This document shows, one piece after another, positions 5,080-62,931 of a DNA stretch of 64,000 bases. The DNA is from Branchiostoma floridae. Taxonomy: Eukaryota > Chordata > Leptocardii > Amphioxiformes > Branchiostomatidae. Each line of letters starts with the position of its first letter. Positions within the stretch are counted from its first letter, which is position 1. Made by a program: the position numbers and the translations under genes. Location: positions 961,604-1,025,603 of the forward strand of contig NC_049982.1 in NCBI RefSeq assembly GCF_000003815.2. Direction: 5' to 3'. The notes below the pieces were generated by a model. That model saw only the letters and a list, made by a program, of their open reading frames with translations. It was not told the origin of the DNA and ran no database searches.

Positions 5080-6831
5080 ATGGCATCGGCTGGTAAAGAG
5101 ATCTCGACACGCAAGTGTCCGCTCTGCGAGTTCATCACAACGGAACAACATCAGCTGGAATCACACATGTTCACACATGCCAACCGCAGGCTCATGGCAA
5201 GGCACACTAAGCTTATCATTTGTGAAAAATGCGGATATAGAACACTGAACTTTATGTCTATGGCAAAACACATGAGGACTCACCTTGTCGAGAAACCATT
5301 CTGGGCCGTAGTGGATAGTAACCCCGCTGTGGTTATCTCAAAGTGTCCCCTTTGCAAGTTCACCACGATAAACCAAAGGCAGCTTGAGTTACACATGTTC
5401 ACTCACGCTTATCCCTTTGTTTGTGAACACTGTGGCTTCATGGCACAAGGCAGGAGAACAATGAGAAAACATATGAAGACTCACATCAGCAAGCAACCAT
5501 TTACCAGCAGTGGCTCTAGTACAGAGATGACCCTTTATAGTTGTCATCTCTGTGAGTTCGCCACCACAGACCAAAAAGAGTTTGAGTCCCATGGGATCAT
5601 TCATGTGACTTTCATAGGTGAGCCCTTCATGTGTGGGGAGTGCAGGTACAGGACAGACACCATGTACTCACTGCAGATGCACATGAAGACGCATGTAAAT
5701 GAGACAGCTATAGGATGTGAACCTGTGTGTGAGTCCAGTCAGGACAAGATGGCCACCAACAGTGAGTCCAGTCAGGACAAGATGGCCACCAACAGTGAGT
5801 CCAGTCAGGACAAGATGGCCACCAACAGTGAGTCCAGTCAGAACGAGATGGCCACCAACAGTGAGCCCAGTCAGGACAAGATGGCCACCAACAGTGAGTC
5901 CAGTCAACACAACATGATGGCCACCAACAGTGAGCCCAGTCAGGACAACATGATGGCCACCAACAGTGAGTCCAGTCAGAACGAGATGGCCACCAACAGT
6001 GAGCCCAGTCAGGACAACATGATGGCCATCAACAGTGAGCCCAGTCAGGACAAGATGGCCACCAACAGTGAGCCCAGTCAGGACAAGATAGCCACCAACA
6101 GTGAGTCCAGTCAGGACAAGATGGCCACCAACAGTGAGCCCAGTCAGGACAAGATGGCCACCAACAGTGAGCCCAGTCAGGACAACATGATGGCCACCAA
6201 CAGTGAGTCCAGTCAGAACGAGATGGCCACCAACAGTGAGCCCAGTCAGGACAACAAGATGGCCACCAACAGTGAGTCCAGTCAGGACAAGATGGCCACC
6301 AACAGTGAGCCCAGTCAGGACAAGATGGCCACCAACAATGAGCCCAGTCAACACAACATGATGGCCATCAACAGTGAGCCCAGTCAGCACAATCACATGG
6401 AAACCCACACAACTGATGTCTGTGAGCAGCATGGCGACAGCGAGCTGTGTAGAATGAATGTTGGTGCAAAACCTTTGAAGTGTGGAGAGTGTGACTACAC
6501 AACTTTCGTCGAACACGCGCTGTTTAAACATATCGCTGGCCACTTGTTGCCGTTCATTTGCGAAGTGACTATGTGTGGCCACAGGGCAGCTTACAAGCAC
6601 CAAGACTTAGTGGACGCACACAAGAGGACCCACATTGATGAGGGACCGTTTTTGTGTGGGAAATGTGGGTACAACGCAGGCAGCAAGCATCGCCTCGCAA
6701 AACACATGAAAATCCACATAGGCAGATACTTTGTGTGTGAGAAATGCGAGTATAAGGCAGCTCTTATAGATGATTTCAACCAGCACCTGATGTCCCACAG
6801 AAACTTTACTCAAGTCCTTAGGCCATGTTGA
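5080..6831 (+). CDS. C2H2 zinc-finger protein with 20-unit Ser/Glu/Gln repeat linker, ended by a transposon
   Basis: 583 residues from the ATG at 5080; the open frame runs further upstream, so a 5' exon is possible. Six C2H2 fingers come first (about residues 13-205; for example CPLCEF..H-M-F-TH, CEKCGYRT, CHLCEFATT, CGECRYRT). Then twenty copies of an 11- or 12-residue unit, S-E-P/S-S-Q-D-K-M-A-T-N (about 217-443), then four fingers (about 466-574: CGECDYTT, CEVTMCGHRA, CGKCGYNA, CEKCEYKA). It is probably a nuclear nucleic-acid-binding protein of the large poly-finger class; the target is unknown. The last codons (R-P-C-stop) come from the end of a Harbinger-like element inserted after TTA at 6818-6820. 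A decayed tandem copy lies at 1-560 and further finger sequence at 8490-9072. The linker is internally duplicated DNA, so its copy number may vary between alleles. Confidence 0.85.
   Translation: MASAGKEISTRKCPLCEFITTEQHQLESHMFTHANRRLMARHTKLIICEKCGYRTLNFMSMAKHMRTHLVEKPFWAVVDSNPAVVISKCPLCKFTTINQRQLELHMFTHAYPFVCEHCGFMAQGRRTMRKHMKTHISKQPFTSSGSSTEMTLYSCHLCEFATTDQKEFESHGIIHVTFIGEPFMCGECRYRTDTMYSLQMHMKTHVNETAIGCEPVCESSQDKMATNSESSQDKMATNSESSQDKMATNSESSQNEMATNSEPSQDKMATNSESSQHNMMATNSEPSQDNMMATNSESSQNEMATNSEPSQDNMMAINSEPSQDKMATNSEPSQDKIATNSESSQDKMATNSEPSQDKMATNSEPSQDNMMATNSESSQNEMATNSEPSQDNKMATNSESSQDKMATNSEPSQDKMATNNEPSQHNMMAINSEPSQHNHMETHTTDVCEQHGDSELCRMNVGAKPLKCGECDYTTFVEHALFKHIAGHLLPFICEVTMCGHRAAYKHQDLVDAHKRTHIDEGPFLCGKCGYNAGSKHRLAKHMKIHIGRYFVCEKCEYKAALIDDFNQHLMSHRNFTQVLRPC
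5728..6408 (+). repeat. Coding minisatellite, 20 units of 33/36 bp
   Basis: Thirteen 33-bp and seven 36-bp units of the form AGTGAGCCCAGTCAGGACAA + GATGGCCACCAAC sum to exactly 681 bp, keeping the frame. Variants (Q-N-E, Q-D-N-M, Q-H-N-M) recur in blocks, as expected from unequal exchange. The opposite strand and a second forward frame are also open across the array, simply because each unit lacks stops in those frames. Confidence 0.95.
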
Positions 6832-48200: not shown

Positions 48201-51200
48201 GACCTGTACTTCCTGCCATTTCGACAGGTCATTTCCCACACACTGCATTCAAATGACTTATGCATTGGACTAAACATCCCGTCCATTCTTCCCTAGGCTT
48301 GATTTGTTTAATGTTCGCCTCTGGTAACATGGAAAGACACAGAATTCTTTTTTTTAATACTAAACCATTTTGATTGATTGACAATTGCAATCATCGCCAT
48401 TTCAATATTTTTTTTTTTACATTCTTGTTTAAAGAGTGGAAAATGGAGCAGGGGGCCCCATACCCTGACCATGTGCCTCCTTAAGCTAAGGGCACAACCC
48501 GCCGTACGTGCAATTTGTCCGTACGTTTTTTTGGGAGGCCACGTCCGCCACGTATTTCCGAAAACGTTGAGGATGTACAGGGCAGGCGCGTCGCCCGTAC
48601 TGGCACGTATGGGGGGCGAATCCGCAACCTGATTAGATGGCACACAAAGTTTTGCCTGCGCGTAAAGTTCTACGGCGTGTCTGCGTGTTCCAAAGTCCGT
48701 CGGATTCCCTACGAGTTCGTACGGAGGCGGTACTTACCACTTTCGGATCCCAAAAGATTGCCCACGTTTTGGCACGTAGACGGCACGTATTTGCACGTAC
48801 GGCGGGTTGTGCCCCTAGCTTTACCCTAGAGAGCAGATCCTCTGGCAAGCATACTTCTATTTAGAACAGGCGGAAATCAATGCACGAGCGGTTGTCATCC
48901 ATAAAATTACGTCGGTGCGCATGCGGCCTAACTAAACACCAACCCAAACAAACACACAGACCGAAAGCTCCGTAGACGGAGTCAACAATGAGACAGTCCT
49001 CCCCGGCCCAATTACTCATTACTCGTGATGATATTTTCTGGAGAAAAAGTGTCTTATCATCCAGTTTTATGGGTACAAAAATTCCATTCACATTCCAAAG
49101 TAGTCTCTACGAGACCTCCTGGCGGACCGAAAATTAGTAGAAATTGGCTAGGGAATATTGGAGGAGGCATCTTTTCCCCTTCTAAGGACCCGCCATGTCC
49201 ACTGAAAAAATATTTAATAGTTACCTCCATGAAATGTCATGGAGGTTGTTACCTCCATGAAATGTCATGGAGGTTATATTTATTACCTCCATGAAATGTC
49301 ATGGAAGTTATATTTTCAGTAGCGTTTGTGTGTGTGTGTCTGTCTGTCTGTCTGTCAACAAGATAACTCAAGAACGGCTGGATGGATTGGTTTCATACTT
49401 GGTGTGTTGGTAGGGTGCGATGAAAGCTGAAAGTGATTAGATTTTGGGCTCCCTAGCGGCTATCCGTGGTACTGCAGCGCAACTTCCGGTTTTGCTATCT
49501 CGTGCTGTGAACAAGCTATGGTCCCAATTTCTTAGGGGTTAGATAGCTCTTGTGCTCAGGAATAAGTGACATAACTTTGGGCCCCCTAGCGTTTAGTTTG
49601 GGGATAGCAGGGGCATTTTTGTCAAAAACTTCTGAAGCAGATAACTCAAGAAGGGAACAACTGATTTTCACGATTTTTGGTATGTAGGTACCTTACACAA
49701 TGTTGTACAATATAAAATACTAATCATGCAAAATTAGAGTACATTTGCATAATTAATGAGAATATTCTATCATAGCAGTTTTTCCAATGTATCTCCTGTC
49801 CCCGGAATGATATGATCTTGACAATTAGGTTGTAGACAGCTGTCAGCGTCATGACATGGTGGGCCAAGTTTTAGCCCCCTAACATCTAATTTGGGAACTG
49901 CATGGGTATTTTTGTCAAGACATTGCAATGAAGATAACTGCAGAGAGGAATGATGGATTTCCACAATTTTAGGCATGCAGGTAGCTTAGGTTAATACGTT
50001 CATAATGATATACATGTTATGCAAAAGAGGACAGTATTTGCATAATTAATGAGGAAATTTTATAATTCCATTATTTCAATAACTTGACTTCAATAAATGT
50101 AACAAATGTACATTATGATAGATGGAACATAAGCAGATGCCAAACATGCTAATTAGGAACTGATTTGCATAATATTGCAATGATATTTGCTCAATGATTA
50201 ATGATAGGAATTTCGTACTTGACGTGTATGTTAGTCAATGATGAACATCACCATGCATGAATCATGAAAATGTGCAAGTCTGTTGCATAAAATTTACAAA
50301 AGCTTGAATATTTCATGGAGGTATGAGGTCGCCGAACTCTAGTTTAATATTTTTCAGTCTACCAAGAGTAAAAATGAATACTTCTTACCAACGTTAAGGA
50401 GTCACCTTACCACCTAATGGCTGCGTGAACAATGTTTGTACGTGTAATGGATTGTTTTGGCACATTGTGGTATCGCTTGGAAACAATATAACCCTGTAAC
50501 CAAACTGTCAACTACTAATAATCTCCAAGCAGATTCTTCAATGGCATAAGATAGTATCAAACTGGCCAAGGAGTATAGTCAACCAATGGGTGCCCATTTG
50601 CCATGTAGCTAAACACACTCCTAAGCTGGCTTCACTCCTCTGCCAGCTTTTGATACTATTTTATGCTACCGTAGAATCTGCTTGGAGATTAACTACCAAC
50701 GGTTTGGGAGAATTAATTTTAGTGATAAAGGAATTCCATATCACTAGCAATCGCGATGCCACGGCTTCTGCAATGTGATTCACAAACCGTTGCATAAAGA
50801 TAGCTTTTTACTTGCATCACTTGTAGTTTTAGTGCACTCTCCCACAGCAGAGATGAATCTGTGTCGTAGAAACTCCTGAAGGAGTATATTACAACGTTGG
50901 TCCCTCTGATTAGGAGAATGTTTTTATGTAGCTAGTTGGTAACACATGTCTCAGCAGTTTTCTTAGTATATAACGCCTTAGAAAATGAACGCCATGCATC
51001 ACAGAAAAATAATCAAGTCTTAAATACGTGATAATCTATATGGTGGTGATATCGTATTATTTTACCAAACGAAGAATACATGGATTTCCTTCCGTTCATC
51101 GGGTAAAATAATAAAAACTTGATCAATTAAGATCGGACGCGATCGGACATAATCATACGGCTCCATGGTTAATTTCCATCGTCTAGTTAATTGACTTATT

Positions 51201-60700: not shown

Positions 60701-61548
60701 GTCTCAGATCTCGGATACTTACAGCTCTCATACTGCAGCGTGCAGTTCTGCTCGTCCAGGGGATAGTTCCGGAGGTCCATGGTGCAGGCCACCTTTGCGG
60801 TTATTCTGCAAAATAAACGGAGCAAAAATCGCAGCTTGTAGTATGTTCTTACCTGCAAAGACTGTCTGGTTTTGTATCTTCCTACACTAGGAGGCTGTCT
60901 AGTTTTCTTGTGTTTTGAACACCACTTCTAATATTTGTAACTTGTATATCTTATCATGATTGCAATATGCAGTTTTGAACGAAGGTGCTTGGTGGTGCTT
61001 TTGATAGCAAAAGGTTTTGAGTTAGGATCGTTTCCAAGATGCATCGGATTTCCACTTTTCACGAAAAACAATGTCAAAGTCTGCTCAGAATTCTAAAACA
61101 GATTAAGCCTCCTGTTGTTTTTTTAGAGATGAAGAAGGTTGTGTCCATAACAAACCTTTGTCAAACTGAATTACCAAGTTGATGAAGCTATGTCCGGACA
61201 ATTTTCTACTAATTCTTTTTTTACACATAGATTTGTCTATCTATTTATTCATCTGATAAATTCATTGATTGATTGATTGATTCATTCATTCATTCATCGA
61301 GTCAGTTATTCATCCATCCATCCTCACCTCTGCCCGTACAGTACCGTCCCGTCCGGGTGCAGCCTCAGCAGTTTGTTGTCCACCGTGACCTTGTGTAGGA
61401 ACGCCTGTTTGGAGTTCGGGATGAAGAGATCAGGCACCCACAGCCGGTCCGACAGGCGCCCGTCCAGGGTCAGGTTAGCGTTGGTGCCCTCAAAGGACAG
61501 GCGGATATCCTGCCAATACTGCCGAAGGAATATCGTCACCATGTAGTC
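57707..61548 (-). CDS. GABA-A receptor subunit (beta/pi-like), exons 4 to last
   Basis: Minus-strand exons 61548-61328 (221 bp), 60805-60723 (83), 60140-60003 (138), 59276-59124 (153), 58790-58585 (206) and 58141-57707 (435, with stop) join in frame: 411 residues. The sizes 221/83/138/153 are those of vertebrate GABA-A genes. Features: agonist-site strands (W-V-P-D-L-F), the Cys loop [15 protein letters not shown] (13 residues between Cys), M1 after Y-P-R-L-T-F-S-F, M2 starting [19 protein letters not shown]3, a long cytoplasmic loop with C-H-V-C-R-C-H, and M4 ([13 protein letters not shown]). The P-A-R at the inner end of M2 marks a chloride-selective pore. It is a plasma-membrane pentamer subunit. 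Signal peptide and exons 1-3 lie beyond 61548, probably outside the window. Assignment among beta, pi and rho types needs a tree. Confidence 0.9.
58182..58223 (+). ncRNA. Hammerhead-ribozyme-like motif (c)
   Basis: GTCA, CTGACGA, A, GGATAG-TGGATT-CTATCC, GAAA, CGTC, TGAC: stem I (GTCA/TGAC) and stem II (6 bp) both pair perfectly. It is the best of the four copies. It lies in the last intron of the GABA-A gene but on the opposite strand; the following repeat body runs to 58315. Confidence 0.5.
59427..59469 (+). ncRNA. Hammerhead-ribozyme-like motif (d), second family
   Basis: TTGCC, CTGAAGA, A, GGTGAC-AGACG-GTCACC, GAAA, CGTC, GGTGA. Stem II pairs perfectly; stem I pairs with two G-U. The surrounding repeat differs from that of motifs a-c (GAATAAAGCATTGGTTGTGT follows). 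A mutated copy is at about 53300-53340. Confidence 0.45.
59512..59660. mobile_element. MITE, ATACTGTAAATGC family
   Basis: Ends ATACTGTAAATGCAGAAATG / GATGCATTTACAGTAT; CGCGGT / ACCGCGAA interior. It lies in an intron of the GABA-A gene. Confidence 0.8.
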
Positions 61549-61624
61549 CTGGAGTAAAGGAATGAATGGGAAAATTAGGAAATTGACAAAAGTGCGAAAA
61601 CATCAGTGGATGTTTTGAAAAGTG

Positions 61625-62931
61625 CCCGTCAAGAGCCTTGTTAGCGTTGGTCCCCTCGAAAGCCAGGCAGTTATCCTGCCAATACTGCCGAAGGAAGATC
61701 GTCACCATGTAGTCCTGGAAAAAAGAAATGAATGGAAAAATTAGTGAATTGATCAAAATGCGAAAAAATCTGTGGATGTTGAGAAAAGCGATCGTACAGG
61801 GTCAGGTTAGCGTTGGTCCCCTCAAAGGCCAGGCGGTTATCCTGCCAGTACTGCCGCAGGAATATCGTCACCATGTAGTCCTGGAATAAAGGAATGAATG
61901 AATTAGAAAATGGATGGTTCCAAGGAACGAAGGAAGGAAGAAAAGAAGGACCAAAGAAGTATAACTGCAGGTAAGCCTGGAATAAAGGAATTAATGAGAA
62001 AATAAATGGAGACTGTTAAGATATAACTGCAGGTTAGCGTTGGTGCCCTCGAAAGCCAGGCGGCTATACTGCAAATACTGCCACAGTCCAGGAACAAAGG
62101 AATGAATGAGGAAATTGGTTGAACGAGCTGAGAAAGGAAAGGAGAGCAGACGGAAGAAAGGAAAGTATAACAGAAGAAAGGAAAGTATAATTGCAGGTAA
62201 GTCTTTTTGCCCTAGGAAGACAGGCGGCTATCCTATCAATACTGCCGCAGCAAGATCGTCACCATGTAGCTCTGGAATAAAGGAATAGATGAGAAAATGA
62301 GTGGATGGAAAAAGAAATGAAACAAGGGAGGGGGAAGGATGGAAGGAAACTGTGAAATTATAACCCCGGGAAAGCGTCTGTATATTCTCAATAGCTAGGC
62401 GGTTATCCTGTCAATACTGTCGAAGGAAGATCGTCCCCATGTAGTCCTGATATAAAGGAATGAATGAGAAAATAACTGTAAGAATTGAAGTACAAACAAA
62501 TCAATGCATGTTTTGAAAATTGTCGCCTTCCAGAGCACTCAGGTTGACGTTGGTGACCTCAAGGGCCAGGCGGTTATCCTGCCAATACTGCCGCAGGAAA
62601 ATCGTCACCATGTAGTCCTGGAATAAAGGAATGAATGGGAAAATTAGCGTAGGAATAAAAGTGCGAAGAAATCGGTGGATGTTGAGAAAACTTGTAGCTT
62701 TCAAGAGCCTTGTTAGCGTTGGTCCCCTCGAAGGCCAGGCGGTTATCCTGCCAATACTGCCGCAAGAAGATCGTCACCATGTAGTCCTGGAATAAAGGAA
62801 TGAATGAATTAGAAAATGGATGGAAGGAACGAAGGAAGGAAAGAAGAGCAGACGGAACAACGGAAAGTATAATAGAAGAAAGGAAAGTATAATTGCAGGT
62901 AAGTCTTTTTGCCCTCGGAAGACAGGCGGAA
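61625..62931 (-). repeat. Tandem array of partial GABA-A exon 4 copies
   Basis: Copies of the exon's acceptor and first 75-85 bp, with about 90 bp of intron, repeat upstream of the real exon. Exon-start positions: 61714, 61880, about 62089 (internally deleted), 62271, 62446, 62617 and 62786, plus a cut copy at about 62890-62931. Spacing is mostly 166-182 bp. Copies at 61714, 61880, 62617 and 62786 keep the frame [15 protein letters not shown]. None has the exon's 3' part or donor. Confidence 0.85.

Follow-up and report, generated by a model that had tools for sequence, protein, structure and literature searches.

Why should a receptor gene carry a string of decapitated exons immediately ahead of an intact one? 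This question is raised by a Cys-loop receptor gene located on the minus strand of a 64,000-nt stretch of the Branchiostoma floridae genome (C4:961604-1025603), referred to here as the window. Five of six exon pieces examined from the gene match Pfam ligand-binding or transmembrane domains, with one match falling below the curated cut-off. Exon 4 matches Neur_chan_LBD (E 3.8e-13), its best match in the PDB is GABA-A beta-3 (E 9.4e-26), and it is bounded by an acceptor reading ..TTTACTCCAG and a donor reading GAG|GTGAGG at 61327. The intron preceding it, intron 3, is ~3.6 kb long and houses the array of exon copies. A separate feature of the gene lies at 60852 on the minus strand, 47 bases before exon 5, where an acceptor-like site abuts a donor-like site (CTTTGCAG|GTAAGA); the juxtaposition may represent a zero-length (recursive) splice site or may be due to chance.

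A preliminary description of the window had counted seven to eight partial copies upstream of the true 221-bp exon, and this count holds, with eight copies of the acceptor region in intron 3, all on the minus strand, of which seven include a recognizable exon head (Table 1). The copies are referred to by the position of the first base after the intron end, i.e., 61714, 61880, 61976, 62088, 62271, 62446, 62617, and 62786. A typical unit comprises the exon head preceded by ~80 nt of intron end, and successive spacings from exon 4 outward are 166, 166, 96, 112, 183, 175, 171, and 169 bp. Six of these eight steps agree within a base with the 166–182 bp first proposed, and the steps of 96 and 112 bp do not. 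Similarly, an acceptor had been ascribed to every copy; the AG is kept in seven of the eight and has become TG in 62088. Across the 75 head nucleotides tested, alignment to the live exon covers 73–75 nt in five of the seven copies with heads, 60 nt in a sixth, and 50 nt in a seventh. Matching extends at most through approximately the first 87–92 of the 221 nt of exon 4. As had been described, at least four copies remain in frame: 61714, 61880, 62617, and 62786, of the seven with heads, have no stop in their first 75 bases, and stops are present in the heads of 62271 and 62446. The exon heads are 76–95% alike (5–24% different) among themselves and with the live exon, and the intron parts differ more.

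Table 1. Coordinates of the receptor gene exons, the exon 4 copies, and an array in a paralogue (window positions unless a locus is named).
Feature	Position	Strand	Remarks
Exon 5, same GABA-A-beta-like gene	60723-60805	-	83 bp, limits by eye; CAG|AATAACC to GAGAGCT|GTAAGT
Live exon 4, GABA-A-beta-like gene	61328-61548	-	221 bp; live end of the array
Partial copy 1	61628-61714	-	AG kept; head up to ~87 nt; open over first 75 bases; far end by eye
Partial copy 2	61797-61880	-	AG kept; head ~84 nt; open over first 75 bases; far end by eye
Acceptor-only copy	61977-62001	-	Intron end with AG; first base after is 61976; without exon head
Degenerate copy	62021-62088	-	TG replaces AG; gap in head; far end by eye
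Partial copy	62200-62271	-	AG kept; stops in head; far end by eye
Partial copy	62380-62446	-	AG kept; head with one stop and a small insertion; far end by eye
Partial copy	62533-62617	-	AG kept; open over first 75 bases; far end by eye
Outermost clear copy	62702-62786	-	AG kept; open over first 75 bases; far end by eye
131-bp block	62799-62929	.	88% identity to 62097-62227, 702 bp away; far end resembles a short exon-head remnant (by eye)
Exon 3 of GABA-A-beta-like gene	L009 6718-6785 (about C4:1026718-1026785), just beyond window	-	68 bp, limits by eye
Donor-side array of paralogue L012, downstream of its exon 4	L012 5577-6665 (C4:1863577-1864665)		~17 exon-tail units of 50 bp by TRF

The distal intron part of the units occurs in more than one type, and one type is common to the non-neighbouring copies 61880 and 62786. 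In addition, recurrence of the 131-bp block is a higher-order duplication. Such mosaic units, together with higher-order duplication, are marks of repeated unequal exchange. A chance origin of the array is excluded by TRF scores of 648 and 559 for its tandem repeats and by a BLASTN E value of 3.7e-51 for its best off-diagonal self-match. A search across the 513-Mb genome, in which simple repeats were skipped and eight candidates were scored, gave no match to the entire array other than the array itself; the remaining hits were paralogous exons, a single short copy next to a paralogue, and some short stretches of low-complexity-like sequence.

Mirage minisatellites of the amphioxus Adh3 gene were reportedly described by Canestro et al. 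in 2002. In the part of PMC3087553 cited here, amphioxus “mirages” are tandem repeats that run across exon-intron boundaries. For example, the globin BflGb6 mirage has acceptor-side units of 150–160 bp that are 81–100% alike, that of BflGb9 has a 157-bp unit on the donor side, and Adh3 units measure 10–72 bp; length instability, and even somatic instability, is described (PMC3087553). TnC and PGBD5 are further mirage genes according to the cited part of PMC3902484, and the cited part of the amphioxus huntingtin paper (PMC2206037) mentions tandem repeats and no mirage. In the exon 4 array, a unit that straddles an exon-intron boundary is tandemly duplicated in the manner of a minisatellite, and the array's mosaic and higher-order units are those of tandem-repeat turnover. 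It is, then, an amphioxus mirage, a kind already published for Adh3, globins, and others, in a new host gene; no published report of this array was found in literature searches that included amphioxus GABA-A genes. Like its relatives, it is a boundary-spanning tandem duplication, a class whose 10–160-bp units may lie on either flank of an exon and in many cases keep splice signals. It differs in lying within a GABA-A-beta-like gene and in having heads that are 76–95% alike, compared with 81–100% for the BflGb6 units.

Two other known processes resemble the array in part. Intron gain by tandem genomic duplication is a known route that likewise starts from a duplicated stretch carrying splice signals, but no new intron or exon is apparent in the exon 4 array, and its copies are without a recognizable donor. 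Mutually exclusive and poison exons also place repeated acceptors ahead of a real exon; here, however, the copies are incomplete and, again, have no recognizable donor.

We consider it very probable that this mirage is an intronic minisatellite whose unit happens to cross the exon 4 acceptor, and that it is a by-product of repeat turnover, not a splicing device. A unit running across the acceptor would give most copies an intron end plus roughly the first 75–87 exon bases, and slippage or unequal exchange may have enlarged the array, whose last unit would be the live exon head. Splicing would ignore the copies under exon definition, since only the most downstream acceptor leads into a complete exon with a donor, and growth of the array would therefore be nearly neutral. 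The anatomy of the array, its broken and mosaic copies, the higher-order duplication, the lack of a recognizable donor, and an edge frequency like that of flanking DNA (see below) bear out the earlier suggestion of debris from unequal crossing-over.

The copies might instead serve as regulatory decoys, competing as acceptors for U2AF and triggering unproductive, stop-bearing splicing that tunes receptor expression. Seven of the eight AGs are kept, the pyrimidine share is 0.76–0.88 in the copy tracts versus 0.82 in the true acceptor, and reading on from a copy acceptor towards exon 4 meets a stop at all eight copy positions (seven with AG). Such a stop is a cost following use of any copy as an alternative acceptor. 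However, every GT on the minus strand from 63000 to 61300 was scored against a donor matrix (GT donors only), and apart from the true exon 4 donor, at 6.27 bits, none exceeded 2 bits. No copy therefore looks includable as an exon, and the GT scan found no acceptor and donor bounding a poison or cassette exon. Full-length, in-frame copies of the mutually exclusive type were likewise not found, with all copies matching only the front of exon 4. The preliminary description was thus correct that the copies have neither the exon's end nor a recognizable donor, and its proposal of poison exons is not supported. Also against decoys is the reported lack of disturbance by mirages: in the cited parts of PMC3087553 and PMC3902484, Adh3 data and globin RT-PCR suggest undisturbed regular splicing, and the mRNA is reported undisturbed in TnC. 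Furthermore, no edge duplication was flagged within 640 bp in 24 of 29 exon 4 homologues, which gives no sign of a conserved role, and exon edges are not enriched for duplications. On balance, regulatory decoys are unlikely.

These last counts come from a survey of tandem duplications at exon edges in 73 loci. Receptor loci were drawn from at least 156 genome matches to the ligand-binding domain, and comprised 29 exon 4 homologues, picked by eye from profile positions among the matches listed, plus the best 30 exons among the matches listed; all 14 globin exon matches in the genome were added as a control. Each exon was surveyed with ~640 bp on either side, and its edges were the ends of profile matches, not annotated exon ends. 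One paralogous exon (L004) was excluded for a run of N over its front part, and one locus (L057) was counted despite looking like a haplotig of another (L049). Local tandem duplication at an edge was flagged in 12 of the 73 loci, or 10 after dropping two (L054 and L065) that only come close. Edges were spanned in 15 of 146 cases (10.3%; 13 without those two loci) compared with 10.5% of flank positions, for an edge/flank ratio of 0.98 (bootstrap 95% 0.64–1.31), or 1.05 (0.67–1.44) against flank repeats not touching the exon. By group, spanned edges numbered 6 of 58 in exon 4 homologues (flank 9.4%), 7 of 60 in other receptor exons (11.7%), and 2 of 28 in globins (10.2%). Open frame continues for >120 nt past 42 of the 146 edges, which may be internal to exons, and counts were repeated without these edges (12 of 104) and with a 60-nt limit (7 of 74). 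Orientation in this filter was guessed from stops, which left 17 loci undecided and contradicted the listed strand at L012 and L046 at least, and the acceptor and donor labels it assigned were accordingly set aside. Hence, no enrichment of duplications at exon edges was found among the 73 loci and 146 edges relative to flank, and exon edges do not look like special targets of tandem duplication. Positions inside exons were spanned in 4.3% of cases, a lower rate than at edges or in flank, as expected if selection merely removes exon-breaking duplications.

These values come from a corrected scan that supersedes an earlier, chunked scan of 59 loci. The latter flagged 8 loci and 10 of 118 edges, with ratios of 1.22 (0.73–1.61) against flank and 1.60 (0.86–2.29) against flank repeats not touching the exon; its complexity filter penalized long matches and missed a BflGb6-like control that was recovered after correction. 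An earlier whole-locus self-BLAST flagged 3 of the 29 exon 4 loci and lost some copies. The corrected scan detects repeats like the published globin mirages: 2 of the 14 globin matches have published mirage unit lengths, one (L077) with a donor-side copy 157 bp away and the other (L081) with front-edge copies spaced ~150, 155, and 158 bp. Mirages at 10 of 73 exon loci suggest that they are common in this genome within the families sampled, and their occurrence at edges no more often than in flank argues for a by-product of very active tandem duplication tolerated by splicing.

Other receptor genes have arrays of their own. In a paralogue (L012/L002), a single head copy precedes the live head by 150 bp, and there is also a donor-side array with other breakpoints (Table 1), many of whose tail units show a CAG|GTAAG-like site by eye; the duplication process thus recurs. 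By alignment, six head copies are present at L026, two at L046, five head and five tail copies at L045 (C10:23893946), two head and four tail copies at L036 (C221:567159), and five tail copies at L051, four of them at 121-bp spacing. Breakpoints and units vary from gene to gene, and the arrays are therefore probably of independent origin. Two of these exons, at L045 and L036, are flanked on both sides, with head copies upstream and tail copies downstream, and both arrays have a strong synonymous lean. The run of N at L004 (1369-1468, near C4:442.8 kb), over the front part of another exon 4 paralogue, perhaps hides a further, unassembled array.

A false array, made by collapsed or stitched haplotypes during assembly, is very unlikely. 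The assembly does have gaps and an apparent haplotig (L057 versus L049, with the same exon protein as far as compared), and one globin mirage is called aberrantly assembled in an older draft in the cited part of PMC3087553. Nevertheless, the copy heads differ by 5–24% from each other and from the live exon, the intron parts differ by more, and the same architecture occurs with other units at other loci.

The codon signature of the copies is less easily accommodated by a mirage. Among the four open copies in the window there are 9 synonymous and 4 nonsynonymous changes (P 0.0006 against a synonymous share of 0.23 and 0.03 against 0.40), or 9 and 6 with the live exon included; these P values, like all those of the codon test, assume independent changes, and the changes are not independent. 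The bias is weak for all seven matched copies (13 synonymous, 20 nonsynonymous; P 0.029), where the synonymous share of 0.39 fits the ~0.40 of one-off copying. In some other codon and stop comparisons, copy 62446 was aligned without gaps despite its small insertion, inflating its differences. The value of 0.40 is our own expectation for a single copying from a constrained exon followed by decay, with the live exon changing at silent sites only and the copy at all sites for equal time. In eight segments of six loci, 83 synonymous and 71 nonsynonymous changes were counted, for a nominal P of 2e-14 against a neutral share of ~0.25 and 0.0003 against 0.40; codon pairs differing twice were resolved by the path with the fewest nonsynonymous steps, which leans slightly synonymous. 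This test covers six of the ten clear loci, with L012 and L032 included only in a count by codon position and the two globin loci outside both. The share exceeds 0.40 at L045, L046, and L036, and not at L026, L051, or the window with all copies. Differences at codon positions 1, 2, and 3 number 39, 39, and 96 (11 segments, eight loci), with neither L012 nor L032 showing clear bias.

The bias in the window, 9 to 4 among the open copies, exceeds plain neutral decay and counts against the mirage explanation. It also goes beyond the published mirage accounts, as far as the cited parts extend. Absence of codon-position bias, together with disuse of the acceptors, had been put forward in the preliminary description as grounds for rejecting its own interpretation; the bias is present, so that interpretation was not refuted on this ground. 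A better explanation of the bias than coding by the copies is that they descend from the live exon or exchange sequence with it. A coding role for the copies, or their use as alternative exon heads under selection, diversifying the ligand-binding face as first envisaged, is scarcely credible, since the synonymous bias in its favour is set against the lack of a donor, a stop on reading into the following sequence, stops inside 62271 and 62446, and a first 14 residues that the live exon shares with all four open copies. Under the mirage explanation, new copies drawn from the live head, or exchanged with it, would acquire the synonymous bias, and our reading of the sequences is that live alleles either gave rise to copies repeatedly or exchanged sequence with them. 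Amphioxus heterozygosity is 3.2–4.2% in the cited part of PMC12862219, and live alleles therefore differ enough to supply silent variants.

Residues of the open heads are also relevant to this exchange. The live exon reads D-I-R-L-S, and the open copies read D-N-R-L-A, except for D-N-C-L-A in 61714. Among 27 readable exon 4 homologues of the 29 picked from the matches listed (this exon included), 26 have a polar or charged residue, proline, or glycine at the first variable position of the motif, and I occurs only in this exon, a pattern suggesting that the copies preserve an earlier form of the exon at the D-N/D-I position. The S/A position is uninformative (7 S and 6 A of 27).

A tentative extension, which we hold to be possible without favouring it, is that mirage arrays act as reservoirs from which exon ends pass to the live exon and into which they return. 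With the live head (or tail) as the terminal unit, unequal exchange or conversion could swap a decoy head in and back again, and units that damage the protein would be purged whenever they were live, such that silent, never-translated copies would keep a coding signature. If this reading is true, each array preserves part of the exon's past, like an incomplete fossil record, and is also a lasting supply of exon-end haplotypes. Owing to the synonymous bias, population data could directly test whether silent and live exon ends are exchanged, and the arrays are natural tests of how the spliceosome chooses among many near-identical acceptors.

Two further repeats were observed elsewhere in the window. 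At 5729-6392 on the plus strand is an apparent coding minisatellite, in which a unit of 11–12 residues (ESSQDKMATNS / EPSQDNMMATNS) occurs ~20 times within a single open frame, flanked on either side by cysteines that, judged by eye, resemble those of C2H2 fingers. Finally, a near-perfect palindrome (CCTCCATGAAATGTCATGGAGG) occurs three times in tandem at 49220-49315, and one of these copies contains a mismatch.
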